Shown here one piece after another: positions 5,403 through 26,043 of a DNA stretch of 35,593 nucleotides. Under the pieces are notes generated by a model. The model made no database searches, had not been told where the DNA came from, and worked only from the letters and a program-made list of their open reading frames with translations. The DNA is from a virus. The stretch's first letter is position 1, and each line of letters begins with the position of its first letter. The stretch lies in the IMG/VR virus record IMGVR_UViG_3300025168_000277, positions 1-35,593 of that record; one strand, given 5' to 3'. The translations under genes were made by a program, and so were the position numbers.

Positions 5403-5407
5403 TTATA

Positions 5408-5430
5408 CCCGGTATCGAGTACCCGACATC
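5408..5430 (+). promoter_or_regulatory. Candidate promoter motif, tandem copies 3 and 4
   Basis: CCCGGTATCGAG (5408-5419) differs from the motif at position 28 at two bases, and CCCGACATC (5422-5430) matches its first nine. They lie between the terminator and the end of the minus-strand small-terminase-like gene. If they act as plus-strand promoters, the transcript would run antisense through that gene into the replication genes from 5928. Confidence 0.4.
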
Positions 5431-5433
5431 TGA

Positions 5434-5449
5434 GATCGCTAGCGCGATC
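5434..5449. repeat. Short GC-rich palindrome
   Basis: GATCGC (5434-5439) and GCGATC (5444-5449) form a perfect 6-bp inverted repeat around TAGC. It lies just 3' of the stop codon of the minus-strand gene and contains no U-run, so it could be a protein binding site or a weak structure at the mRNA end rather than a terminator. Confidence 0.5.
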
Positions 5450-5451
5450 AC

Positions 5452-5844
5452 CTAATTCGGTTTTAATATTTCTTTTAATTGTCTGTCTAACTCTTCGTCA
5501 GTCAGTTCATCAACGGTTAATTCTGTATTTGTCTGATCAATTCTAGACAATTTAGGTGATTCAAACTCAGCTAAAGACTTTGCTAAATCAGCAGCCTGTA
5601 TATCGTCACCAGCATCTAGTGCTTTCATCATTAAGATGCGAAGTATATCGATAGCACCTACGGGTTCGTCTTCAAGTGATTCTTTGAATTCTTTAAATTG
5701 TTTAATAGTAACCTTAAGTTTTTCTCTCGCTATATTATTAGCTCTGCGACTTTCAGCTGATTTCAACTGAGCAGCTCGTGCTGTGTCTGGTGTTAGCAAA
5801 GGCTTAAGATTCTTTAAACTATTTGGATGTGAATTATGAGCCAT
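5452..5844 (-). CDS. Putative terminase small subunit, 130 aa
   Basis: The N terminus (NSLKNLKPLLTP then a basic, Arg/Lys/Ala-rich helix to about residue 45) and the helical middle (AIDILRILMMKALDAGD, ADLAKSLAEFESPKLSR) resemble phage small terminase subunits, which bind the packaging site and load the large ATPase. The acidic tail ELTDEELDRQL fits the segment expected to contact the large subunit. AGGAG lies 6 bases before the start on the minus strand. It is the only minus-strand gene in the plus arm, flanked by a bidirectional terminator and a divergent intergenic region. The large terminase is outside this window, so the call rests on sequence pattern alone. Confidence 0.5.
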   Translation of the reverse strand: MAHNSHPNSLKNLKPLLTPDTARAAQLKSAESRRANNIAREKLKVTIKQFKEFKESLEDEPVGAIDILRILMMKALDAGDDIQAADLAKSLAEFESPKLSRIDQTNTELTVDELTDEELDRQLKEILKPN

Positions 5845-11219: not shown

Positions 11220-13529
11220 ATGCAGCCTATTTATGAGGTTAGAGACTACCTCATTGAGAAAGTGAGGACTGTCAATAGTAAGAATCCAAAAGCAAATACA
11301 GGCGCAGTAATACTGCAATACAACAAGGACTACGAAACAAATATGGAAGGCTTTGTAAAGAATGCTCTCCAAACTATACAAATATTGTTCACAACCAGTA
11401 GTAGTTCTAATCCTGTAGGAACAGCCAGCTTAACTAATGTATCATTCAAAATAGGAAGAGAAATTAGTAAAGAACTAGGAAGAGAATTAACTTGGCTTAA
11501 TCAAATTAGACTAGGTGACCTGTTCGTAGAAGCATTCTATCAATGTGGTTTTGCAGATATATATTATCCAAAAACTAGAAACACTAGTTATATTATATCT
11601 GCAACAGCTAGATGGGTAGAGCTGGCAGACATACCCGGTATGTTCTCTAGAATAAACCTACTGCACACTTCAATCACACCACCAAGAAACATTAATGGTA
11701 TGATGCAGAAGTCAGGAGCAGTATTTTTCCCTGTAATAAAAGGTAAAACTGCAAAAGATTTTCTAGAGTTAGACAAACCATATATACGGTCAATAAATAA
11801 ACTGCAAAACTCTGGATGGAGAATAAACAGAAGAGTACTAGATGTTATAGAGAAATACAAAGAAGTATTCTCTAGCTCTATACCATTTAAAGACAACGAT
11901 GCTAAAGAATTAAAACGTAGAAGTCAGGCATTAGAATGGAGTTTCATTATAGCTAAAGCTAATATATTAAAAGATGAAGATATATTCTATCAATATCTAG
12001 ACGCTGACTACAGAGGACGATTGTACTACAAAGAACCTTTCCTAAACTATCAAGGATCAGATATATCTCGTGGTATGTTAAAGTTCGCAAGAGCTAAACC
12101 TATGACACAAGAAGGTCTGTATTGGTTAGCAGTACATACAGCAACAAGTTACAATGCAAGCTTTAGTATAGATAAAATACCAGAGTGGTGTGAATCTGAT
12201 TATGAATCATACCTAAAAGAAGAAGGACTAGATGATATATCCGTAGATAAAATGACATTAGACGATAGAGTACGATGGGTTAATGAAAATATGGATGCAA
12301 TTGTTAACTTAGGTACAGATGGTGAGATTGATTCTGAAGCAGAAAAGATAGTAACTTTCTTAGCTTGCTGTATTGAATGGTCTGACTACACTAAAGCTGT
12401 AAAAGATAAAAGAATACATATGTCTAACCTTCCAATACCTATCGATGGGTCTAACAACGGGTGGCAACACTTAGGTGCTATATCTAAAGATACTCAAACA
12501 GGTGATCTTGTTGGTCTTATACCTAGAGAAATACAGAAAGACTTCTATGTACAAACTGCAAAAGAACTAATTAATCTAACAGATGATGAAAGGTTAATAA
12601 GCATACTAAACATGATGCCTATGAAAAGTATACGTAAAGGTATTACTAAACGTGGCAGCATGACTCGTGCCTACTCAGCAGGTGCTAAGAAGATCGCTGA
12701 GAATATGTTCTTTGATTGTAAAGCAGAAGATTATCATACAGAATATGGTATAACTCAGGACGATTGCAACAAGTTTGCTAAGGTATTAATAAAAGCAATC
12801 AATAATGTATGTCCGGGTCCATTACAGACTATGAGTTACCTTCAAGAGCTTGCTAAGTATGAACTTGGTACTTTCAAGAAGGTTGATGAAGATGGAAAGA
12901 TAGCAGGACCAGAGTATAAAGAAGCTGTAAAGAGAAGATCAGAATTGTTCAAAACAAAAGACATAACTGATGAAGAAATTGATGAGTTAAATGAACTTGT
13001 AAAGTTTACATCAAAATACAAATCAATTCTTGTATACGGCAATGGTGCTGATAGAGTTAAATGGACTACCCCATCTGGATTCAGTGTTGAATATACAAAA
13101 TTCAGAATGGAACGTAAGAAAGGTAGAGGTACTATCGCAGGGTTCAAGAAAAACAGTGGTGGTCATCAAGGGATAAACCACGTTGCTCAGACAGCAACTA
13201 TATATCCTGACATACAAGGGTTCTTGTGTGGTATATCACCAAATGTAATACACTCACTCGATGCAAGTCACATGGCTCTAGTAATAGATCAGTGGCATGG
13301 AGAGTTTGGTGCAGTGCATGATAGCTTCTCCACCCATGCATGTGACGTTGAACACCTCATTGGTATAACCAAGAGAGCGTTCATAGACATGTATGATGTA
13401 GATAACTTCTACAACTGGCTCGAACAAGAGCTAATATCTGAAGACCATGAGGGTCTAGAGGTACAACAACCACAGTTAGGTACACTAGATGTCAATGACA
13501 TCCAAGAGTCCGACTACTTCTTCGCATAG
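11220..13529 (+). CDS. T7-like single-subunit RNA polymerase, 769 aa
   Basis: The polymerase shows the family motifs in order: GR element with R267 (DYRGRLYY), motif A D409 (IDGSNNGWQH), motif B K477 to Y485 (TKRGSMTRAYS), HSLDASH, and motif C D701 (VHDSF), ending SDYFFA, very like the T7 C terminus. Motif B has Ser486 where T7 has Gly. Y485 is the residue equivalent to T7 Y639 and is retained. It is shorter than T7 RNAP (883 aa), so the N-terminal promoter-binding region is reduced. It lies at the end of the replication block and probably transcribes later genes. Confidence 0.96.
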   Translation: MQPIYEVRDYLIEKVRTVNSKNPKANTGAVILQYNKDYETNMEGFVKNALQTIQILFTTSSSSNPVGTASLTNVSFKIGREISKELGRELTWLNQIRLGDLFVEAFYQCGFADIYYPKTRNTSYIISATARWVELADIPGMFSRINLLHTSITPPRNINGMMQKSGAVFFPVIKGKTAKDFLELDKPYIRSINKLQNSGWRINRRVLDVIEKYKEVFSSSIPFKDNDAKELKRRSQALEWSFIIAKANILKDEDIFYQYLDADYRGRLYYKEPFLNYQGSDISRGMLKFARAKPMTQEGLYWLAVHTATSYNASFSIDKIPEWCESDYESYLKEEGLDDISVDKMTLDDRVRWVNENMDAIVNLGTDGEIDSEAEKIVTFLACCIEWSDYTKAVKDKRIHMSNLPIPIDGSNNGWQHLGAISKDTQTGDLVGLIPREIQKDFYVQTAKELINLTDDERLISILNMMPMKSIRKGITKRGSMTRAYSAGAKKIAENMFFDCKAEDYHTEYGITQDDCNKFAKVLIKAINNVCPGPLQTMSYLQELAKYELGTFKKVDEDGKIAGPEYKEAVKRRSELFKTKDITDEEIDELNELVKFTSKYKSILVYGNGADRVKWTTPSGFSVEYTKFRMERKKGRGTIAGFKKNSGGHQGINHVAQTATIYPDIQGFLCGISPNVIHSLDASHMALVIDQWHGEFGAVHDSFSTHACDVEHLIGITKRAFIDMYDVDNFYNWLEQELISEDHEGLEVQQPQLGTLDVNDIQESDYFFA

Positions 13530-13777: not shown

Positions 13778-13788
13778 TAAATAAAAAA

Positions 13789-13836
13789 CCCCCACTAGGA
13801 ATCCTTAATTGGAAACTTAGTGGGGGTATTTTTTTT
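13789..13836. terminator. Bidirectional terminator between converging arms
   Basis: CCCCCACTAGG (13789-13799) pairs with CTTAGTGGGGG (13816-13826), about ten base pairs. A T-run follows on the plus side (13829-13836) and an A-run precedes the stem (13783-13788), giving a U-run on the minus transcript. It ends transcription of both the plus replication arm and the minus virion arm. Confidence 0.88.
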
Positions 13837-16800
13837 ATCCTGAATAATGATTAGCAATATTTTCCTTGCTACCATCTTGATTTATTAAAGTATAACCTGA
13901 TTTCTTCATAAGATCTAATGCATTCATCTTTTGAACATGAGTTTTTGTAGCCCAATTTCTAAGTCTAGAAAAGTTTTTACCATATAAGAAACTAAAGTAA
14001 ATAGGTATTAACTCTTGTAAAAATCCATAATTTAAATTGTTCACAGTACTAATATAATCTGGAGAGTTAACATCAAAATTATATTTAGCGTTACCTCCAA
14101 TAGATGACGAAATCAAATGCCTTATAGTTGATAAAGACTGAGTTTGTACATTGTTAGATTGCTCTAACCAATTTTTATTATGAGACATAAAACTTTTAAT
14201 ATTTATATTAAACTGAGATTCATGTCTAAACTTTGCACGAGAACCTAACCTTTTATCATACTCTCTACTGCCCTCAGGTACACCTGAATTATAACTAAAC
14301 AAATCTACAAAGAATCTTTTATCTTCATCAGTTAGACGTTCTTTAGGGTTTTGTTTGTTTAACCATTTCATATATGAAGTATGTTCTTTTTGAAGAGAAT
14401 TTAAAAGTTGTTGAAATATATTATAATTCCTTATAACATCTGTAATAGCTCTATTAACTTCCCTTAACACTGTATCAAAAGTTCCTATGTCAAGATAAAT
14501 AGCATCATAAACCATTTGCATAAATGGGTTACCACCACTGTTATGGCCTATCATTGAGAATGTTTTACCAGTAAGAATATGATTGAAGACTGCTGCATCA
14601 ATTGAATGTACAACTTTAGAAATTATTTTACTATGTAGATCACCACCTGACATAGAGATATCTACCCCTGAAACTGGATCAATATCTTCTTTATATGCTG
14701 TCATAGATCTTTTAGTTTCCCATTGACCAACAGTTAAAGATATTTTTTCAAATTTATTAGGGTCTTCATCACCTTTATCTTTCAATAATTTACTTTGTCT
14801 TGTCATTGAATATGAATTAGATGTTGAATCATCCCATCCACGAGATTCCCATAAACCTACAGTCAAAGGTGTATTATCAGGACTCATAAAGATTAACTCA
14901 GGTGTGTTCATAAGTTGATAAGATAAACTAATAGTTCTTAAAATAGATCTATATTCTCTTGCATCATCCCCTTGTAAAACTTCATAACTTTCCATGTACT
15001 TTTTATGTACCATATGTGCTACAGCATTTAAGTTATTATTTTTCTTTAAATTATCATAAGAAGTAACAAAAGGATGTGGGTTCCCAATTGTTTGGCTAGA
15101 TTTTAAATTTCGATATAAAATATCAATAGTATTTTTAACATCTGCTTTATAAGAATCACGCTCCTTGCCAAAAGCTTCAGTCATTACAACATGCTTTGCC
15201 ATAGTATTATTCTTACCTTCACCTCTAGTTTTAAAAACCTCAACAGATATATTATGAATATCAAGATAAGGCAATTCACTATTAGGTGATCCATCACTAT
15301 CATTAAATAAGTTTTTAGGATAATCCCAGTTAATCACTGGTTCACTTTCAAGAGTACTTAAAAGAATACTAATTAGCTGATCTCTTAAATCTCCATTATC
15401 AAGGATAGATATACCTTGAGATCTTAACATGCCTGTTTTATATAAGTTATCTATATTACCTATCAAGGCGGCAATAATAAAAGCACCACTTGTTTTACCA
15501 TCTATGTTTGACATAGTTGTTGAGTAAAAAGGAGTGTCAGTATTTTCCCTTTTCCATTTCCTATATTTAGAAAACTCTGATAAGTCCTTTAAAAAAGCAA
15601 TGGATTCTATACCTTTTTCTTTTATAGCAGAAATTAACTTAGCATCCAATTCATTATTAGGATCTAACGTAGGTGAGTTCATTCCAGTAAACACTGGATT
15701 TTTTACTAACTCACTAACATGACCTTGACCTGCTACAGTTTTTTCAGGTGGTGGGAATATACCATCCTTCATACCGATAAGATCTTCTCCAAAATTATCT
15801 ACTAAATCAAACACTTCAATAACTCTATCACCCATCTCTTCAAAAAGATTACTATTTATTTCTAAATTACGATCTCTTTCTTTAAATAATAAGTCATCTG
15901 TTTTAAGACCTGTCTTAATTACTTTACCATCTGATATTGTATAATACTCTGCAGCTTTAATAGCAAAATTTAATGCAAACATCTGCCTAAGAAGAGCTTC
16001 AGATCTATTACCTTTACGAATAGGATAGACAACAGGATTAGCTAATGCACCCCTTACTATTTTTAAAGCTTGAGGATTTAAATGAGTTACATCTAAATCT
16101 ATTCTACCAGAAAACCCTTGTATAGCTGTATTAAAATAAAACAAAAGACCTTGCGCTCTAGCAAGAGACCTTAGTACCCTTGCAACTTGTAAGACTGCTG
16201 CATCATATTCTTGTTCTACTGTTGGAATGCGAGAGTTTTTAGGTACACCAGACCTTCTATTAAAATACTCAGTTACTTGTTGGCTTTCAATGGATGCAGT
16301 TATTTCATTAATTTTTGCTTGACCTATTCCAAGAGCATCTAACTTCCATCTTTTTGACTCATCACTCTTTTCAAACACAGTTTTATAACCTTCACCATCT
16401 TGTCTTGATTTTAAAAAAGGTATAAGTAATTGAAATAAAATATATAAATTTTTATTATTTATTTTAAAAGAAATACTAGAAAGATTAAACCTAGCCTCTT
16501 CAGCTTTTTTAGATAAGCGTCCACCAATAGCACCACGAACGGAATTTAAATTATCACCCTTTAAAGGTGGTGTTAGTAAAATATCTTTAAACTCTTTACG
16601 CAATAAAAACCCACGAGCCATTCTAGATTCAGGATTATTAAATACCTTATGACCTAACTCTGTCAATGCAAACTTAATTGGAGATGATATCTCACCACCC
16701 TTACCCTTAACAGAAGGTATTCTTGTAAGTAAAGGGTACTTAATACCACCATTATTATCAGCTCTACCTTCCTGACCATGAACAGAATATAATAACTCTT

Positions 16801-17896
16801 GAGCATAATCACCTAGTGTTGTAGCTTCTTGAGAATTAGAGTCAGCCTCCTCATCTCTACCCTGTGATAACCAGAATTGTTTTATTGCTTCACCACCTAT
16901 CATACCATTGCTTCTATTCTTTGCAATTAATGTTTTATCTTTATAATCAACTTGCTGTTGAACAGTTAAGTTATCCTTATTAGCTAAAGCATCAGCATAC
17001 ATAGACTTAGCTATTGCATCTTCAGCTGCTACAAGTAAAAACGTCACAAGATCAGGATGTAAATACATCTTTTGTTTTCTAGCCTCTGCACCTTGTCTTT
17101 CAATTTCAACACCTTCTACTTTAACAGGTCTTAAAGTTAAAGGTGCATCAGTATTTTCTCTTACAATACCACCAACTGATTCAGCAGCAGCAAGATAACT
17201 ACCGGGTCTTACAGATTTATGTCTAGCAAATGCTAACCGTTTAACAGGATCACTAGCAATCTGTATCATAGGTTTACCATTTAAATTTTCTTGTATCCAC
17301 TCAGGATGTTCAGCAAGAAACGATTCAGATGTAGATTCATAAGGTATTGTAAGACCTGCACCTTCGTTTCTAGAGTATTCTATTCCATCTTGTATTCTGG
17401 AATCTAAACCAATCAAAGCATCACCATTAACTAATGCCTTAATTGGATTAAGATATTCATCAGCAGCATTTGCTTCATCTTGTTCTGGGTTCCAAGTGCC
17501 AGATTTTATAGCCTCACGTCTACCAGTCACTGTAGTTGCAGTAGGATCTAAATCTACCCCAGAACTCTCTGATATCTCAGTAGCATCAGCTTCAACAGGA
17601 CCATAAGGTGATCCCTCTCTAAAAGGATCTTCACCAAAATCAAAAGGAACTGAAGAAGCTATATCATATAAACTTCGATTTTCTTTTTCAGCTGCAAGGT
17701 CAGACTCCCTTTGAATATCCACAGATGTAGGTGAGTTTAGCTCATCTGTTTCATCCACTAAATACTCTTCTACAGTATCTGCTACAGCCTCTTTAGCTTT
17801 AGATCGATTTTTTAAATCTTGTAATAAATCTGGATGAAGTGTATTACCAAGAGCTGTTTCATTATCCACTACCCCACCAACTGATGTTTTAGCCAT
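13835..17896 (-). CDS. Putative virion-packaged single-subunit RNA polymerase, 1353 aa
   Basis: Visible motifs in family order: GFSGRIDLDVTHLNPQ with R598 (T7 R425 region), motif A IDGKTSG with D799 (T7 D537), motif B NTMAKHVVMTEAFG with K901 and F909 (T7 K631 and Y639), VVHSIDA near 1095-1101 (T7 HSQDGSH), and motif C VYDAIYLD with D1131 (T7 D812). Spacing between motifs is longer than in T7, as in the N4 virion polymerase. The first 550 residues or so match nothing I know and could hold a packaging or injection domain. It is the last gene of the virion operon, four bases after the 1501-aa ejection protein, so packaging and ejection with DNA is likely. F909 (codon TTT, checked) replaces the sugar-discriminating Tyr. 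The motif match is direct; packaging is inference. Confidence 0.72.
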   Translation of the reverse strand: MAKTSVGGVVDNETALGNTLHPDLLQDLKNRSKAKEAVADTVEEYLVDETDELNSPTSVDIQRESDLAAEKENRSLYDIASSVPFDFGEDPFREGSPYGPVEADATEISESSGVDLDPTATTVTGRREAIKSGTWNPEQDEANAADEYLNPIKALVNGDALIGLDSRIQDGIEYSRNEGAGLTIPYESTSESFLAEHPEWIQENLNGKPMIQIASDPVKRLAFARHKSVRPGSYLAAAESVGGIVRENTDAPLTLRPVKVEGVEIERQGAEARKQKMYLHPDLVTFLLVAAEDAIAKSMYADALANKDNLTVQQQVDYKDKTLIAKNRSNGMIGGEAIKQFWLSQGRDEEADSNSQEATTLGDYAQELLYSVHGQEGRADNNGGIKYPLLTRIPSVKGKGGEISSPIKFALTELGHKVFNNPESRMARGFLLRKEFKDILLTPPLKGDNLNSVRGAIGGRLSKKAEEARFNLSSISFKINNKNLYILFQLLIPFLKSRQDGEGYKTVFEKSDESKRWKLDALGIGQAKINEITASIESQQVTEYFNRRSGVPKNSRIPTVEQEYDAAVLQVARVLRSLARAQGLLFYFNTAIQGFSGRIDLDVTHLNPQALKIVRGALANPVVYPIRKGNRSEALLRQMFALNFAIKAAEYYTISDGKVIKTGLKTDDLLFKERDRNLEINSNLFEEMGDRVIEVFDLVDNFGEDLIGMKDGIFPPPEKTVAGQGHVSELVKNPVFTGMNSPTLDPNNELDAKLISAIKEKGIESIAFLKDLSEFSKYRKWKRENTDTPFYSTTMSNIDGKTSGAFIIAALIGNIDNLYKTGMLRSQGISILDNGDLRDQLISILLSTLESEPVINWDYPKNLFNDSDGSPNSELPYLDIHNISVEVFKTRGEGKNNTMAKHVVMTEAFGKERDSYKADVKNTIDILYRNLKSSQTIGNPHPFVTSYDNLKKNNNLNAVAHMVHKKYMESYEVLQGDDAREYRSILRTISLSYQLMNTPELIFMSPDNTPLTVGLWESRGWDDSTSNSYSMTRQSKLLKDKGDEDPNKFEKISLTVGQWETKRSMTAYKEDIDPVSGVDISMSGGDLHSKIISKVVHSIDAAVFNHILTGKTFSMIGHNSGGNPFMQMVYDAIYLDIGTFDTVLREVNRAITDVIRNYNIFQQLLNSLQKEHTSYMKWLNKQNPKERLTDEDKRFFVDLFSYNSGVPEGSREYDKRLGSRAKFRHESQFNINIKSFMSHNKNWLEQSNNVQTQSLSTIRHLISSSIGGNAKYNFDVNSPDYISTVNNLNYGFLQELIPIYFSFLYGKNFSRLRNWATKTHVQKMNALDLMKKSGYTLINQDGSKENIANHYSG

Positions 17897-17899
17897 ATC

Positions 17900-20800
17900 T
17901 TACTCCTTGAAATTTAGGTTAGTTGTTAAGTCACCTATCTCGTTTGTTAATCTATTAATAGATCCAATGTACGGTGTTGCTTTAGAAAGTTTCTTAAGAC
18001 CACTACCAACATCACCAGTTATTAAATTTTCTCCTGCACCTATTAATCTTTCAAGGTTACCAAGTCCGGGAGATTCTCTAGATACTGCTCCAAATAAATA
18101 TTCAATCATAGTATCACCTTTATTACCCTGAGGGTACAAAGGCGCAAACTGATCTAGTATTCTTTCGTATGTACCTAATAATCCAGAAGACCTAACACCA
18201 CGTTGAAGGTAACCTGACGTATCTAAGTAAGGATTACTACGACTACCTTCAAGTGGATTAACCACACCCATGAAGTTGTCTTCATCTTCATACTTCAACA
18301 TGTCCTTAATAGCTTGAGAAGCAAATCCCAACATGATCATAGTTGCCATCATAGAGTATGCACTATACTTCATAGTTGGTGAACCACGTTTAAGGTACTC
18401 ACCATATAACCTTGGCAAGTGACTAGCTGTAAACGTAGCCATAAACCCTTGAAACTGTGTAAACAATGCGTACCTAGGATCTTGATAGATTAAAGGTCTA
18501 TTCATAGCCATAGGTAATGCCACTGCTTCATTAACAAAATTAAATGTAGCTTCTCTTAGCTGACTGTTTCTATATTCCATTTCTTTTTCTGTTAATATAT
18601 CTAGACCACCTTTCTGCTCCATGTCTCCAATTGAATTATTAGTTTCAATAATTTTCTTTCTTGCAGATTCCTTTTCTTCTAAGGTAGTAGTATCACTAAG
18701 GAGTATTTTATACTCTGCTATATTAGCATGTTTCATATTTAAATCAAATCTTTTATAAAAATCTACAAAAGTTTCAACATCTAATCCTAAGTTTCTTAAT
18801 GACTCTTTAGCTTGAGTTACTTCACGAGTTACCTTATCAACTTCTTCTCTATTTAATGTAAGGGTTCCGGGTTCTTCATCAATATCTCTTTTTAAATCCA
18901 TTGAATTAACAAAATTAGAGATTGATTCTCTACCTAACTCTGTATTTATATCAATAAAAGGATCAACATCAAAAACATAACCGTAATCAACAATCAGTTT
19001 TAATTTTTCACTAATAAAGTCAGCTGCAATAGAAGCACGAACAGCACGAGTGTAGTTTGTCCACCCTTGTAAACCATTCCATTTAAAATATGATTGCATA
19101 ATATTTCTTTGCCAAGCATTAATTTCTGTAGCACCAACTGTAGTCGATGCACCTAAGCCACTTTTAATATAACCCAGATCACGTATAATCCTTTGACCTC
19201 TTGCTAACTTAGCAGATGTATCAAAGTTTTTACCACCGGGTATATCATTAGATATTTGTTTCATACCAGACTTAATCATTGCAGCAAACTCTTGACCTTG
19301 AGTTTTTAAAAGACCATTAACATCTTCAGGTTTTAAATGCCTACCAGTTAAAGCAAGCTCAACAAAAGAAGATATAGTAGATAAAGATAAGCCAGCTAAA
19401 GCTGTAAACATTAAGAACGATCTTTGTATTTGTTCAAGTTTCTTACCTGCCTCAGTAGTTGCACGTTTAAAATTTCCAGACTCAGCTAACAGTGCGTTAG
19501 ATAACTCAAAAGCTAATTTATCAATTAAAATTTGAGCTTTCTCTTCACCATAAACCTTAGCTAAATTTTCTTGAGACTGATTAAGTAATTCATTTACAAT
19601 CCTACCATCTTTACCTATAAACATAGAGTGTGATAAGTGTCTTGCAGCTGTAGCAGAGTAGCGTGTTAAATTAGTAAACACATCTTGCTCTAAGAACTCT
19701 TTAAACTCTGGTCTTTCGGAAAGTTTTAAAGTTCTTTTCTTAGTAAAGCTAGGGTTAAGATCACCCTTTACCATTGAAAAAGCTTCATCAAGATCAACTG
19801 TTCCAGTGGTAATTATCTTATCAATCACAGCATCAATCTCAGTTTCTGAATAATTTATATCTTTTCTAATACTCATTAATAATTTTTTAAATAACTTTTT
19901 CTTTTTCCTAACACTCCTTACACTTAAAGTTTTAAATACACTACCGTATTGTGGTGTATACTCTAATGAACCTCTCTCTCTACCTTGTGTATCTAATCTA
20001 TTACTCTTAAGGTTTTGTTCATTAATTTTTTTAAACACAGTGTCAGTAGCTTTATTAATCTGATTAATTAATTCTATATATGTTTCTCTGTTCTTTAAAT
20101 CCAATGGTATTAAAGTTTCATCAAACACAACACTAGTAGTACCATCAGGATTCTTTACAGTTTTTTTAGCATTATCCCATACATCATTAAACTTTTCAGA
20201 TGCAGCCTTCTGTTTCTTCCTAGTTGAATTACCTTCAATTACTGTATTATAAAAAGTAGACTGATCCATAACATCACTCATAATTTCAGATTGTAAATGT
20301 ACCTTTATAGACTCCCATGCTGCACCACTAAAAGATTTTTGATTAGCGTTACCAAAGATATCTTTCAACATTCTTCCGGGAACTTCTGCAACTGCTAAAA
20401 ACTCTTTTGTAAAACTAGACGTAGATATACTCTGGAAAAATTTAGGAAACATTTTTAAACTATCAATAACTCTATTTTGAAAAGCCATTTTACCAAACCT
20501 TTGCATATGTCTTTGAGACTTATCATTAAGGTCATCTGTATTAATTTTATTCTTTGGGTTTTGTAAGTTTCCTTTTTCTATATTTAACTTAGCTTTTGCT
20601 TTAGCATCTGCATATAACTTTGCTTTAGCTGTCTCAGATCTACCATCCCACTCACCTTTAGCTATACTTTTTTTCTTTGCAATACTAAAAAGTCTAAAAG
20701 CTTCATCATCAATTGCTTTATTATTTACTTGAGCTAAGTCATCTGCTTCGGATGCATTGTCTTGATTCGTTGGCATACCTTTTAAATTATTCTTTTTAAT

Positions 20801-22405
20801 ATATTCATCAGCCCATGCACTAGCATCTGATATCTCAGAACCATCTCCTTCTTGCGCGCCATAGGCAATGTTAGCCCATCCTACATGATTTGATGCCTGA
20901 AAAGGCACACTAAATCCAAGACCTAAAGCTCCACCAGTAATCGCAGCTGTCATCATTCTTTTATTTAATTCATCAAAGTCAAAGACTTTATCAGATCCAG
21001 CAGTGGCTGCAAGATAGTTAGTAGCTTCTTGACCAAGCTCTGTTAATCCCTCACCAGCTGATGCAGCTCCTGATTTTGAAGCTATAGATTTAAAAAGTTC
21101 TTTCCCTCTTATCTGTTCTTTAGCTACCTTAGCAGCATCACCTGCAAAACCTACAAGTTCTCGCTTAGTTGCAGTAGCTATCTGAGCCTGTGCAACTTCC
21201 CTAGGGACACCCCTTGCAATCAATTCTAATAGAGCAGTATCTAAAAGTTTCTTAGGCATAACACCTTTACTAAATACAGCTGCTAAACCTAATCTATCTA
21301 AGGTTGCTTGAACAACACCAGACATCATAGCAATTTTTGGATCTCTATTACCAGACATCTCATTATAAGTTTGACCTGCATACACAGCAGAGGTAGCAGA
21401 TATACCAAGAGGTAATGCTAAAGTAGCACCTATCAAAGGAGTGGCTACATTAGCAACAGCTAAAGTACCTAAAGCTAAAGCCATGTAAGGTACAGACATA
21501 GCTGCGTTATTAGCAAGCCATATCATAGTATCATATGCACCATCAATATCTCTGTAGTCTGTTAACCTTGTACCATACTCACCTATTTTGGCACGATACC
21601 TTTCAACACCTTCTTCCCCTATATCACTCAATCTCTCTGCGTCTAGTAGATCACCAGATGCTTCTAAGAAACCATACATACCTTCCATGACTCCCATCCA
21701 ACCATGTTCCCAAGAGTCGGTAATAGGGTTTAAAGATTCATTGGTTACAGTACGATCATTCTTTCTTGTTTGAGTAAGAGTTTGGGAGTAATAGTTCCCT
21801 TGTTCTAATTGGTTTGCAGCTGCTAATTCCTTTTCATCAAATGCAACTTTCTTTATTCCTTGTGAGAACTCTCCCTCTTTTATTCTAGCAGAAAGCATTT
21901 GATTCCTAGCTAAATCATAGCTTGTGGTCTCAGCACTTCCCATACTATAGAACCTTTCTAAAGCCCCTACACTATGTTTAGCTACATCTAAATCTGAAGA
22001 GTATGCAGAAGTACCTAATATTCCCTCTCTTAAAATCTTATCTTTAAAACTTTGACCACTACTATTTACTAAGTCAGCCAATGTTCTTCCATAGAAATCT
22101 TTTTTAATATTTCCCTTACCATCAGTAAGAGGTCTAATATTAGTAAAGCCATTATCATTTGCTAGCTTTGACATAATAGCTGTAGCTGCTGAACCTCCAG
22201 CAGTTCCTTCTTTAAAAGTACCATCATCAAGTATTTTTGAAACTTCGGGAGTATCAAACCCAACTAGCCTATACCTAACACCTCCTTTGTCAACAGTATC
22301 TCCGTCAACAAAGTAAGGCATGGTATTAGGAGATTGAATGTAATCATTCGGGTCACCAAGCTGTGAGCTTTCAAACCTCTCATTTACTGCATCTATCAAA
22401 CTCAT
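17900..22405 (-). CDS. Giant ejection protein with N-terminal SNase-type nuclease, 1501 aa
   Basis: Residues about 28-150 form a staphylococcal-nuclease-like domain: FVDGDTV (D34, D36), RLVGFDTPE (R46, D51, T52, E54) and DFYGRTLADL (R107) supply every catalytic residue of that family. A long hydrophobic stretch (about 296-345), further hydrophobic segments near the middle and C terminus (LMFTALAGLSLSTISSF, MMATMIMLGFASQAI) and a Gly-rich tail ending near LITGDVGSGLKKLSK suit a membrane-inserting internal virion protein of the T7 gp16 kind. Such proteins form the DNA-ejection channel. It sits between the murein-hydrolase and polymerase genes. An added nuclease could act on host DNA or RNA after entry; it must be restrained in the virion. 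The domain call is strong, the ejection role inferred. Confidence 0.78.
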   Translation of the reverse strand: MSLIDAVNERFESSQLGDPNDYIQSPNTMPYFVDGDTVDKGGVRYRLVGFDTPEVSKILDDGTFKEGTAGGSAATAIMSKLANDNGFTNIRPLTDGKGNIKKDFYGRTLADLVNSSGQSFKDKILREGILGTSAYSSDLDVAKHSVGALERFYSMGSAETTSYDLARNQMLSARIKEGEFSQGIKKVAFDEKELAAANQLEQGNYYSQTLTQTRKNDRTVTNESLNPITDSWEHGWMGVMEGMYGFLEASGDLLDAERLSDIGEEGVERYRAKIGEYGTRLTDYRDIDGAYDTMIWLANNAAMSVPYMALALGTLAVANVATPLIGATLALPLGISATSAVYAGQTYNEMSGNRDPKIAMMSGVVQATLDRLGLAAVFSKGVMPKKLLDTALLELIARGVPREVAQAQIATATKRELVGFAGDAAKVAKEQIRGKELFKSIASKSGAASAGEGLTELGQEATNYLAATAGSDKVFDFDELNKRMMTAAITGGALGLGFSVPFQASNHVGWANIAYGAQEGDGSEISDASAWADEYIKKNNLKGMPTNQDNASEADDLAQVNNKAIDDEAFRLFSIAKKKSIAKGEWDGRSETAKAKLYADAKAKAKLNIEKGNLQNPKNKINTDDLNDKSQRHMQRFGKMAFQNRVIDSLKMFPKFFQSISTSSFTKEFLAVAEVPGRMLKDIFGNANQKSFSGAAWESIKVHLQSEIMSDVMDQSTFYNTVIEGNSTRKKQKAASEKFNDVWDNAKKTVKNPDGTTSVVFDETLIPLDLKNRETYIELINQINKATDTVFKKINEQNLKSNRLDTQGRERGSLEYTPQYGSVFKTLSVRSVRKKKKLFKKLLMSIRKDINYSETEIDAVIDKIITTGTVDLDEAFSMVKGDLNPSFTKKRTLKLSERPEFKEFLEQDVFTNLTRYSATAARHLSHSMFIGKDGRIVNELLNQSQENLAKVYGEEKAQILIDKLAFELSNALLAESGNFKRATTEAGKKLEQIQRSFLMFTALAGLSLSTISSFVELALTGRHLKPEDVNGLLKTQGQEFAAMIKSGMKQISNDIPGGKNFDTSAKLARGQRIIRDLGYIKSGLGASTTVGATEINAWQRNIMQSYFKWNGLQGWTNYTRAVRASIAADFISEKLKLIVDYGYVFDVDPFIDINTELGRESISNFVNSMDLKRDIDEEPGTLTLNREEVDKVTREVTQAKESLRNLGLDVETFVDFYKRFDLNMKHANIAEYKILLSDTTTLEEKESARKKIIETNNSIGDMEQKGGLDILTEKEMEYRNSQLREATFNFVNEAVALPMAMNRPLIYQDPRYALFTQFQGFMATFTASHLPRLYGEYLKRGSPTMKYSAYSMMATMIMLGFASQAIKDMLKYEDEDNFMGVVNPLEGSRSNPYLDTSGYLQRGVRSSGLLGTYERILDQFAPLYPQGNKGDTMIEYLFGAVSRESPGLGNLERLIGAGENLITGDVGSGLKKLSKATPYIGSINRLTNEIGDLTTNLNFKE

Positions 22406-22428: not shown

Positions 22429-25400
22429 TTAATTAAACCTTTCACTGTACATAAGGTACTCTAAGTATTTTAAGAACTCACTTTTCCCTGCGTGAGCTTT
22501 ACCTTTACTATCTCTCCAGTCTTCTATGTTCTTAGCTATTGGAGCATTATTACCCTTATCAGAACCTTGGTAATCTCTGTTAGGCCCTGCTCCCTCAACA
22601 AAGTTTTCTCTCCAAGTATTCCAATCTGGAAACATTACCTCATCTAAAGGTTTATTTTTATTAATCTCTCTTATTTTTTCAGACACAAGTGCAAGAAGAC
22701 CAGATGAAAATACTCCCAAATCTTTATCATGAAGATTTGGAAACAGATAAGTAGTTACTCCATCCCTAGTTTTTTGCATCTTTTGAAGTTTTAAAAATGT
22801 ATTTGTAATATCACTAGGCTTATCATACTGAGCTGAAGAAGCATGAGTATATGTAGTAGCATGTCGTTTAGATTTTTCAGCTGGCTTAGTCATAAACAAA
22901 GACTCGTCTTGACCTATTTTAATTTTAATCCAAGCAGCATTCATAAATGAACTATCTACATCCATACCTGCAATGCCTCTAATTGTAGACGCTTTACCTG
23001 ACCCACCTGTTTTTATATGATGTTTGTATGCTTCTGCCATAGCTTGTTCATATATTTCTAGAACCACAGCCGAAGGAAGGTTGTACCTCTGACCAAAGTG
23101 AGCTAAATTTATTGCTTCTGCTGTAGGTGCTACTTTAGAAAAGGTGTTAAAGGTCTTATCACTATCTTTACCAGATACCTGTTTAGTATCATCATACGTG
23201 TACGTGTCTAAATAATCATCTACCGAACCTTTATACGTAGTAGTAGCTGATGCTGAAAAGTCTAGATAATCTGTTGATTGAAAGTCTCTAGCTATAACAG
23301 AATCATCAGTCCAAAGTGGATCCATAGGATTAATCTTCACTTTATCATTCTTCTTTGTCTTTGGATTATAAATAGAAGCCATATATCCAGACTGTTTTTT
23401 ATCACCTGTACCAGTAGACCAATATACAGCTGTATATTTACCAACCTTATTACCATTTTTATCTAGTCGGTAGTAAACCTTAGTCTTTGATGCATCATAA
23501 TTTGTATTATTTAACTCACTAAATCTTACTAAGTCATCTGTATCTTGACTCCTATTATATAACTCAAGACTGGGTTTAGTAAATACATTATAACTTGCTA
23601 ATTTTTTAACATGGTTATTCCACATATCTAACTTATTAACGTAAGCAACTTGGGTCATGTAGTCTTCACCAGCAGCTTTAATAGCTTGGTTACCTGTAGC
23701 ACCAGTTGCTCTGTATGCTGCGTAAATCATAGCTGCTCTTGCTAAAGACTTACCATCAAACACATCATCAAATGCAGCTTTAATAACACCTTCAGCTGCA
23801 TCTAAAATTCCTTTCCACTTAGTAGGTTTTTCAGCTTTATCTATTTCCATCTGTTGTAAAGCAGCTTTAGTTGATCCCCCAAAAGGATCATTACCAAAAA
23901 TCTTTGCTCTCTCTGGTTCAGATCCCGGTTCTTGTGGGTTATCATAAGCAATTAATTTATTTCTTACATCTGCTTCAGAGCCATGTATTAAAGAAGGTTG
24001 AGCTTTATTAATCCTTTCCATACTAGATGTTTTAAATGCATCAGATACATCAGCAATCCCTTTAACTTTTTCAATATATGCATCTATACTTTTTACTTGA
24101 GGACTATCTTCTGCAAGACCTTGATCAATATACTCTTGTCTTTTATCTAACGCTTTATCAATAACTACTTTATTCTTTTCTATTCCAATTATTGCGTTTC
24201 TAATATTTTTACTTTCAAATATTTGAAGTCTTGCCTTAGAGTCTTCTACTTTTTTATCTAGCTTTTCACGATCAGACGTACTAAGATCGGTATTATATTG
24301 ACTAATTAAATCAGCAAGTGTTTTCTCTTCTGATCTTAAATAATCTAAAGAAGATCTTATTGGAGTTTCTTTGCTTATAAGAGAACCACCGGGTCCGGGT
24401 ATTCCTTCTGAACTAATCGGAGGTTTAAAATCTACTGAGTCTTCAGAAATATATGGGTTTTGAATATCTTTTAATAGTTCAGGTGTATTCTCAGGAACTA
24501 TATCTGTAAATAAATCGCTACTATAAATAGGGTTGTTTTTTAGCAAGTTACCACCACCCAACCAAGGAGCAACTTTGCGTTCTTTAGTAAGAAAATTCCA
24601 CCATTTATTAGAGGACTTTTCTTCTTGAGCGTCTATTGGTATTGGGCCTTCTGGTGATGAAGTTGTACCTTCAGTAACTAATGTGTTCTGTCCTGTATTA
24701 GGAACAGCACCACCGTAAGGACTATCTACAAAATTCTTACCATCCCAGTTAGAAAACTGTTGCTGCCGCGTTTGATTAAGACCGGGCATTATTCTTCTTT
24801 CATTAGTCTCTATATTTTCCTGAATAGGTGTATCATTTTTACCAGTGTAAAACTCCCATAAATCTTTTTTCTCTGGAGTCTCTTCAACTTCAGGCGAGGG
24901 GATACCATAAGGGAATCCATGAGAATCTAATCTTGGTGGGTAAGAATGTAGCTGCCTACCATAAGGATCACCGGGTCCACCTAAGACGTTATTACGAGCC
25001 TGAGAAGAACCATACAACATAGCTTCATCAGTCATCTGATCTCTACCTAGTTGATTAACTTTATGCTTTGTAAAACCACCTGACTTATTACCCTTTAGTA
25101 ATCCTTGTATTAATGTTTGTATAGAGCTAGCTCCAGTATTTGCGTACATAGGGGTATCCTCCATAGCTGGTACGTTTAAAAATGAGTTCTCTACAGAATC
25201 TCTTGTTGATTTCATAATATTATTTATATGATCTTCAGCGTTAGATGTTGGTACATCTAAAGTTCTAACCTTTGGTATAAGAGACTTGTAGCCTACGATA
25301 GGGTTTTGATAACCTAATACTTTATCATCACTAGAGAAAACATGATTACCAATTTTTCTTCTATTATGTGTTTTACTCCACCATTCCATAGGATAACCTT

Positions 25401-26043
25401 CACCTTCTAGCTTATCACTACCTTCAAATCCATAAAAGTTATCATCATCAGGTCTTAAAAAATAGTGAGCACCATTAGTAGGATCTACAATATCACCTTT
25501 TATCATACCTTCAAGAATAGCTTTAGATCTTAAGTATTCTTCTGACTCTTCTATCTTATCTTTATACCAATGATAAGTTGGATTATTTGATCTTGGATTA
25601 GCTGATGAAAATTGGTATCTAATTTCTCCTTTTTTGTTTTTTTTATTTTTATTAATTATATCTTTTATACTATTACCACCCCATTGCTTTTGATCTGCTT
25701 TCTGTCTATTTAAAACAGTATACATAACACCAGCTCTACCTTCGTCATCTTCTCCAACAGACTCTCCTAAAGACATTCTAATTAATAAGTCTTTATCATC
25801 TTCAGATAAAACATACTTACCATCATTAGCAGTAAGGTATGGTATATTACCACCTGCATTATACTTTGGTACATCACCTTTAACCATTTTATTTTCTGCA
25901 GCTCTTTGCTCTAAACCTGCATCATTCATAGCTTGTAGTTGTGGTCCAAACATCTGAGAAGCTTCTTTATTTATTACCCATTCACCCGGAGTTAGCATCG
26001 CAGGGATGCTATCTCTGTTCGTAGGATCTGTAAGGTCTCTCAT
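22429..26043 (-). CDS. Internal virion protein with SleB-type murein hydrolase domain, 1204 aa
   Basis: Residues 84-240 match the SleB cell-wall hydrolase domain: IRMSLGESVGEDDEGRAGVMY with E94, QFSSANPR, DPTNGAHYFLRPDD, and a closing IGNHVFSS. SleB enzymes are lytic transglycosylases; in a virion protein the domain would open the cell wall during DNA entry. The N terminus has DSIPAMLTPGEWVINKEA (11-28), a motif usual in tail tape-measure proteins. A charged coiled-coil section lies near 560-690 and an Ala-rich amphipathic section near 750-800. It is followed at 24 bases by the SNase-fusion gene. No holin or free endolysin is visible, so it may also aid exit, but entry is more likely. Confidence 0.82.
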   Translation of the reverse strand: MRDLTDPTNRDSIPAMLTPGEWVINKEASQMFGPQLQAMNDAGLEQRAAENKMVKGDVPKYNAGGNIPYLTANDGKYVLSEDDKDLLIRMSLGESVGEDDEGRAGVMYTVLNRQKADQKQWGGNSIKDIINKNKKNKKGEIRYQFSSANPRSNNPTYHWYKDKIEESEEYLRSKAILEGMIKGDIVDPTNGAHYFLRPDDDNFYGFEGSDKLEGEGYPMEWWSKTHNRRKIGNHVFSSDDKVLGYQNPIVGYKSLIPKVRTLDVPTSNAEDHINNIMKSTRDSVENSFLNVPAMEDTPMYANTGASSIQTLIQGLLKGNKSGGFTKHKVNQLGRDQMTDEAMLYGSSQARNNVLGGPGDPYGRQLHSYPPRLDSHGFPYGIPSPEVEETPEKKDLWEFYTGKNDTPIQENIETNERRIMPGLNQTRQQQFSNWDGKNFVDSPYGGAVPNTGQNTLVTEGTTSSPEGPIPIDAQEEKSSNKWWNFLTKERKVAPWLGGGNLLKNNPIYSSDLFTDIVPENTPELLKDIQNPYISEDSVDFKPPISSEGIPGPGGSLISKETPIRSSLDYLRSEEKTLADLISQYNTDLSTSDREKLDKKVEDSKARLQIFESKNIRNAIIGIEKNKVVIDKALDKRQEYIDQGLAEDSPQVKSIDAYIEKVKGIADVSDAFKTSSMERINKAQPSLIHGSEADVRNKLIAYDNPQEPGSEPERAKIFGNDPFGGSTKAALQQMEIDKAEKPTKWKGILDAAEGVIKAAFDDVFDGKSLARAAMIYAAYRATGATGNQAIKAAGEDYMTQVAYVNKLDMWNNHVKKLASYNVFTKPSLELYNRSQDTDDLVRFSELNNTNYDASKTKVYYRLDKNGNKVGKYTAVYWSTGTGDKKQSGYMASIYNPKTKKNDKVKINPMDPLWTDDSVIARDFQSTDYLDFSASATTTYKGSVDDYLDTYTYDDTKQVSGKDSDKTFNTFSKVAPTAEAINLAHFGQRYNLPSAVVLEIYEQAMAEAYKHHIKTGGSGKASTIRGIAGMDVDSSFMNAAWIKIKIGQDESLFMTKPAEKSKRHATTYTHASSAQYDKPSDITNTFLKLQKMQKTRDGVTTYLFPNLHDKDLGVFSSGLLALVSEKIREINKNKPLDEVMFPDWNTWRENFVEGAGPNRDYQGSDKGNNAPIAKNIEDWRDSKGKAHAGKSEFLKYLEYLMYSERFN

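Follow-up and report, generated by a model that had tools for sequence, protein, structure and literature searches.

A compact relative of the N4 virion RNA polymerase encoded beside a T7-like RNA polymerase in podoviruses related to Roseobacter phage CRP-7

Results

IMG/VR virus record IMGVR_UViG_3300025168_000277, from a marine bacterial virus, carries a gene for a compact, N4-type virion RNA polymerase (vRNAP) at 13835..17896 on the minus strand. The window analyzed here is the whole record (35,593 bases), which is a fragment because it ends inside structural genes. The open reading frame (ORF) is open throughout, begins with ATG and encodes 1353 aa without a single cysteine. Based on the ORF, alignments, profile comparison and a predicted model, it is a real gene whose product is the second single-subunit RNA polymerase (ssRNAP) in the window. 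Its convergent partner at 11220..13529 (plus strand) is an ordinary T7-like RNA polymerase (RNAP) of 769 aa with 9 cysteines (Pfam RNA_pol, 9e-56; 38% identity to gp30 of Roseobacter podovirus CRP-7). The original prediction, made from the sequence alone, placed a second, divergent ssRNAP here, distinct from the T7-like enzyme, and this is borne out by the open frame and the profile scores below. It also spoke of a small podovirus genome, which is inexact for a fragment: CRP-7 (MK613349) has 58.1 kb and several related contigs have 57-61 kb.

The GR element, motif A Asp, motif B Lys and motif C Asp of ssRNAPs are all present, in order. R598 (codon 16103..16105; this and the following codons are on the minus strand) lies in a DxxGR element, has counterparts in N4 R424 and T7 R425, and is followed by NPQxxKxxR as in N4. 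Motif A is DGKTSG with D799 (15500..15502; N4 D559, DGVTNG), motif B extends from K901 to F909 (15170..15196; N4 K670 to Y678), and motif C with D1131 (14504..14506; N4 D951, FDG) is YDA, not HDS. A VVHSIDA element supplies H1097/D1100. These positions agree with those first proposed, except that the proposed motif B pattern, RxxxKxxxMxxxYG, is correct for K901, M905 and G910 and wrong for its R and Y, as the protein has N897-K901-M905-F909-G910. An alignment of 27 sequences, with ~16-27% identity to the window protein, contains only 18 invariant columns, among them R598, D799, G800, G804, K901, G910, D1131 and N1148. Judged from this alignment, invariance of the catalytic set in such divergent sequences is far beyond chance.

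F909 (15170-15172) is a natural Phe at the ribose-selecting Tyr site of motif B (T7 Y639, N4 Y678), where the other 26 of the 27 aligned members have Tyr. The vRNAP of the schitovirus DEV likewise has Phe at this site. In T7, the Y639F change weakens discrimination against deoxynucleoside triphosphates (dNTPs), and F909 may relax NTP/dNTP selection. Family A DNA polymerases are marked by Phe at position +4 of motif B and an HDE motif C; such an identity was considered and is disfavored by M905 at +4 and by the absence of HDE.

BLAST and phmmer searches of the 1353-aa protein against phages and PDB returned no match, and Pfam had none for it; Pfam RNA_pol matched 1 of 10 homologues (E 0.0017). 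Among PHROGs, the protein matched ‘virion RNA polymerase’ (E 0.0012) around motif C, at residues 1124-1189; ‘RNA polymerase’ was matched by 5 of 10 homologues. A hidden Markov model (HMM) of the homologues found no polymerase among PDB sequences, so the link to N4 rests on profile-profile and fold comparison.

For the former, a profile of 27 homologues was aligned by hhalign to one built from 13 Schitoviridae vRNAP domains, including N4 residues 998-2103 (mini-vRNAP). The two matched with a probability of 98.6 and an E of 7.4e-16 over 706 columns, covering window residues 274-1180 (14357..17077, minus strand). The pairs R598/R424, D799/D559, K901/K670, F909/Y678, D1131/D951 and N1148/N968 (window/N4) are in register, and NPQ-K612-R615 falls on NPQ-K437-R440. 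Controls with the reversed N4 alignment and five column-shuffled ones gave E values of 0.34-0.98. At motif A, the single N4 sequence already aligns (LMALMEYSRY...EADGVTNGP versus LKDLSEFSKY...NIDGKTSGA in the window), and the signatures DGxTNG/SG, NPQxxKxxR and [FYH]D[AG] are common to the window protein and the N4 family. The score was 155 to the N4 profile versus 33 to a profile built from 18 T7-like RNAPs of these phages; closest kinship to a T7-like phage RNAP, as for the T7-type enzymes of Autographiviridae, was thus not found. At the level of sequence, the in-register match and the two scores place the 1353-aa protein in the N4 vRNAP lineage and not as a copy of the neighboring T7-like RNAP, in agreement with the N4-type affinity first proposed. 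The N-terminal part without a match amounts to ~270 residues, since the N4 alignment starts near residue 274, and not to the 550 novel residues originally envisaged.

An AlphaFold2 model of residues 200-1353, made with 23 sequences, had a mean predicted local distance difference test (pLDDT) value of 69, mostly 80-92 in the core blocks, and a predicted template modeling score (pTM) of 0.69. Foldseek searches with this model retrieved T7 RNAP (E 3e-15) and N4 mini-vRNAP (E 4e-12), and its BFVD matches were phage RNAPs and vRNAPs. VIA-align gave Z 25.3 for T7 RNAP over 542 residues (root-mean-square deviation 7.0), 22.9 for mitochondrial RNAP, 21.2 for N4 mini-vRNAP (584 residues, 4.8 Å) and 20.8 for 1cez (3.9 Å over 531 residues), where differences of up to 1 Z count as ties and the higher Z of T7 does not imply closer kinship than with N4. 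By the T7 and Foldseek values, the predicted model has the right-hand polymerase fold. D799 (model residue 600) ends a strand and D1131 (model residue 932) sits between two strands in a strand-turn-strand; in the model, both are placed as in polymerase palms. The comparison with T7 and N4 structures suggested in the original prediction therefore came out in its favor: the model superposes on both enzymes, and the palm whose absence would have counted against a polymerase is predicted.

The T7-like RNAP, DNA polymerase, primase and several virion genes of the window have homologues in the same order in CRP-7. The positional counterpart of the vRNAP there is gp33, a 1235-aa ‘hypothetical protein’, and direct BLAST comparison of the two proteins detected no similarity. 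The bridge between them needed intermediate clades, obtained from 72 viral contigs with the T7-like RNAP as anchor. A convergent large ORF was present in every contig with enough sequence beyond the RNAP, measuring 1.2-1.5 kaa if complete, and these ORFs form three BLAST-connected clades. Each clade has few invariant residues, and the polymerase set is among them: R598, D799, K901, G910 and D1131 in the window clade; the GR-element Arg, D, YG and HDA in the CRP-7 clade; and R, D, K-x7-YG and the motif C Asp in the third. The three clades are linked by profile comparisons in which the motifs line up (E 1.8e-7, 5.8e-6 and 1.1e-12). Profiles of the CRP-7 clade (A5) and the third clade (A6) match the window clade at E 6e-10 and 1e-9. 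Against N4, both give weak matches (E 0.003 for A5, outside motifs A-C, and E 0.001 for A6). A second model, from the contig L048, close to CRP-7 (the contig of L006, 83% identical to gp33), superposed on T7 RNAP with Z 24.1 (4.0 Å, 496 residues). Since a close relative of gp33 is modeled as an ssRNAP, the cultured CRP-7 very probably has the enzyme too, and gp33 would be the same kind of polymerase, previously unnoticed. It shares position, lack of cysteine and cryptic motifs A, B and C with the window protein, and differs in its motif A (DARQSNAG), a Gln replacing the conserved His, and its HDA motif C.

Scanning with the window-clade alignment yielded 51 loci, mostly 22-29% identical to the window protein, and full-length family members span 1117-1498 aa. 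A T7-like RNAP and a primase, convergent with the vRNAP gene, were found in 48 of the 48 loci analyzed; three of the weakest loci were short. In one locus (L088, 13463-15725) the T7-like RNAP is split in two ORFs by a frameshift or sequencing error and the vRNAP is intact. No cellular or proviral copy of the family appeared in the scan of genome contigs. Compared with L014, L028, L025 and L018, the window vRNAP is 23-29% identical and the DNA polymerase, primase and T7-like RNAP are 78-89% identical. In contigs with replication proteins this similar, the 1501-aa neighbor of the vRNAP is about 39-45% identical over its length; the ejection module would be either exchanged or very fast evolving.

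The vRNAP gene is the last of a minus-strand virion operon, at a junction into which the replication genes and T7-like RNAP run from the left and the virion genes from the right. The location in an ejection-protein operon, opposite in orientation to the T7-like RNAP, was thus described accurately. Between the two polymerase genes lies an A-stem-loop-T structure (13782..13836), a terminator-like hairpin readable from both strands (fold -26.9 and -25.4 kcal/mol). Three bp upstream of the vRNAP gene ends the gene for a large, cysteine-free virion/ejection protein of 1501 aa (17900..22405, minus strand), a homologue of CRP-7 gp34 classed by PHROG as a virion structural protein. Near its N-terminus, residues 45-129 match a Staphylococcal nuclease-like domain weakly (E 0.01). 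Next is a gene for a putative ejection protein of 1204 aa (22429..26043, minus strand), also large and cysteine-free, with a cell-wall hydrolase domain at residues 97-236. The vRNAP and these two neighbors contain 0 cysteines in 4,058 aa, versus 64 in the 3,507 aa counted for plus-strand genes, and the vRNAP homologues of all three clades are cysteine-free except for three related sequences with one each. In N4, the known ejection proteins gp50, gp51 and gp52 have no cysteine, and gp53, gp54 and gp65 have 3-11. The N4 ejection operon consists of three genes with the vRNAP last (PMC12633501); here, too, there are three large genes with the vRNAP last, and junction position and order match gp50-gp51-gp52. 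Operon position and lack of cysteine support packaging in the virion indirectly.

In the early region, the motif CCCGACATC or close variants occur on the plus strand at 27, 462, 5407 and 5421, always in noncoding or intergenic sequence, with six matches at <=3 mismatches versus 0.65 expected. The (A/T)CCCGACATCGRG repeats at 27-42, 462-477 and 5407-5436 (plus strand) precede a tRNA gene and early genes and lie upstream of the DNA polymerase region. This repeated motif might be a phage promoter for either polymerase. The left end has a tRNA-Trp (CCA) gene at 44-117, then ~600 bases without a long ORF. A small minus-strand gene lies within the early region at 5452-5844; its CRP-7 homologue, gp61, is found beside the gene for the terminase large subunit, a local difference in gene order.

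Discussion

We consider it likely that the 1353-aa protein is a catalytically intact ssRNAP of the N4 lineage that is packaged, ejected and used as early polymerase before handover to the T7-like RNAP. Such a vRNAP would be reduced to little beyond the mini-vRNAP core plus short extensions. It would be synthesized late and enter the capsid together with the 1501-aa and 1204-aa proteins, and its ejection into the host would accompany or precede that of the DNA. There it would transcribe the left-end early genes, and the T7-like RNAP, once made, would assume middle and late transcription. If so, a phage family other than Schitoviridae would also eject an early polymerase.

The window protein resembles N4 gp50 in fold, in catalytic residues in register, in its DGxTNG-type motif A, NPQxxKxxR and [FYH]D[AG] motif C, in lacking cysteine, and in being encoded last in a late operon beside other ejection proteins. 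It differs in size, 1353 versus 3500 aa (less than half, as first stated), and is too short to hold the large C-terminal domain or the bulk of the N-terminal one. Its phage is not N4-like, and the partner RNAP is single-chain, unlike the two-subunit N4 RNAPII. With T7 RNAP and the Autographiviridae enzymes it shares the right-hand ssRNAP fold, motifs A, B and C and the GR element, but its sequence is far closer to N4 vRNAP, its ends are longer, and it is cysteine-free and encoded in a virion operon.

The intact catalytic residues would also suit an active polymerase that stays unpackaged, a late-expressed second RNAP working inside the cell in, for example, late transcription or replication priming. 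We regard this as unlikely, given that the gene closes the virion/ejection operon, 3 bp from its neighbor, that the protein is cysteine-free along with its operon neighbors, and that position and order are those of N4 gp50. Less probable still is an ejection protein of vRNAP descent, like T7 gp16, whose polymerase role was lost or changed. The very fast divergence (23-29% versus 78-89% for flanking replication proteins) and the replacement of R by N and of Y by F in the window’s motif B would fit such a loss, but R598, D799, K901, G910 and D1131 are invariant in 27 sequences otherwise sharing roughly a fifth of their residues, all three divergent clades keep the polymerase set, and the DEV vRNAP also has F at the Tyr position. 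That the protein is a diverged duplicate of the phage’s own T7-like RNAP is very improbable. The two are ssRNAPs encoded by adjacent genes and the family HMM matches T7-like RNAPs weakly (E 2e-4), but vRNAP-type clade profiles score 155 (N4), 100 and 96 among themselves and 33 to the neighboring RNAP profile.

Several observations weigh against the proposal of a packaged, ejected N4-lineage polymerase. The protein is shorter than the 2,842-3,820 aa given for Schitoviridae hallmark vRNAPs and has NIDGKTSG in place of the ExDGxxxG motif used in the same study (PMC10654107). It has F at the sugar-selecting Tyr position. The N4 major capsid protein and CRP-7 gp51 are also cysteine-free; as other cysteine-free phage proteins exist, the absence of cysteine supports ejection and does not prove it. 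In N4, promoters form hairpins whose loop has 3 nt (PMC4496689); the window has no excess of such hairpins, with 12 found (stem >=6, 3-nt loop) versus 10 expected from shuffles and none with stem 7, in a search where promoter rules may differ from those of N4 and the left end may be incomplete.

vRNAP has been described as unique to Schitoviridae and ~3,500 aa long (PMC12633501, PMC7650795). In a large-scale search for N4-like viruses, proteins < 2,500 aa were dropped (PMC10654107), which would have excluded the compact family by design. This cut-off, and the blindness of single-sequence BLAST to the compact vRNAP, are probably why it was missed. The CRP-7 paper reports the T7-like RNAP only (ORF30 there; PMC6918029). 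A distant N4 vRNAP outside Schitoviridae has been claimed for ORF30 of phage vB_PunP_Y3, of Poorviridae (PMC11654794). That protein is, like ours, large and cysteine-free, but it has 3421 aa and is annotated as ParB-superfamily. We found no K-x7-YG motif B in it (L159, 24147-34412), and it is absent from the 31 best vRNAP-profile matches; the published assignment looks doubtful from its sequence. No report of a compact vRNAP was found in the literature searched, mostly without subscription papers and preprints.

Conclusions

A cysteine-free vRNAP of about one third the size in other widespread marine phages would demonstrate that an ejected polymerase can do without the giant flanking domains. 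The compact vRNAP also offers a small subject for the question of how a polymerase passes through the tail and refolds. A phage of the Roseobacter RCA lineage thereby gains a probable enzyme for early transcription, and, with CRP-7 in culture, vRNAP packaging and rifampicin response are open to experiment now. More tentatively, and with somewhat less than even confidence, we suggest that a widespread marine podovirus family outside Schitoviridae runs its whole cycle without host RNAP, using a natural ejected mini-vRNAP and an adjacent T7-like RNAP. If true, this two-stage viral transcription would be more self-sufficient than that of N4, whose late genes need host RNAP.

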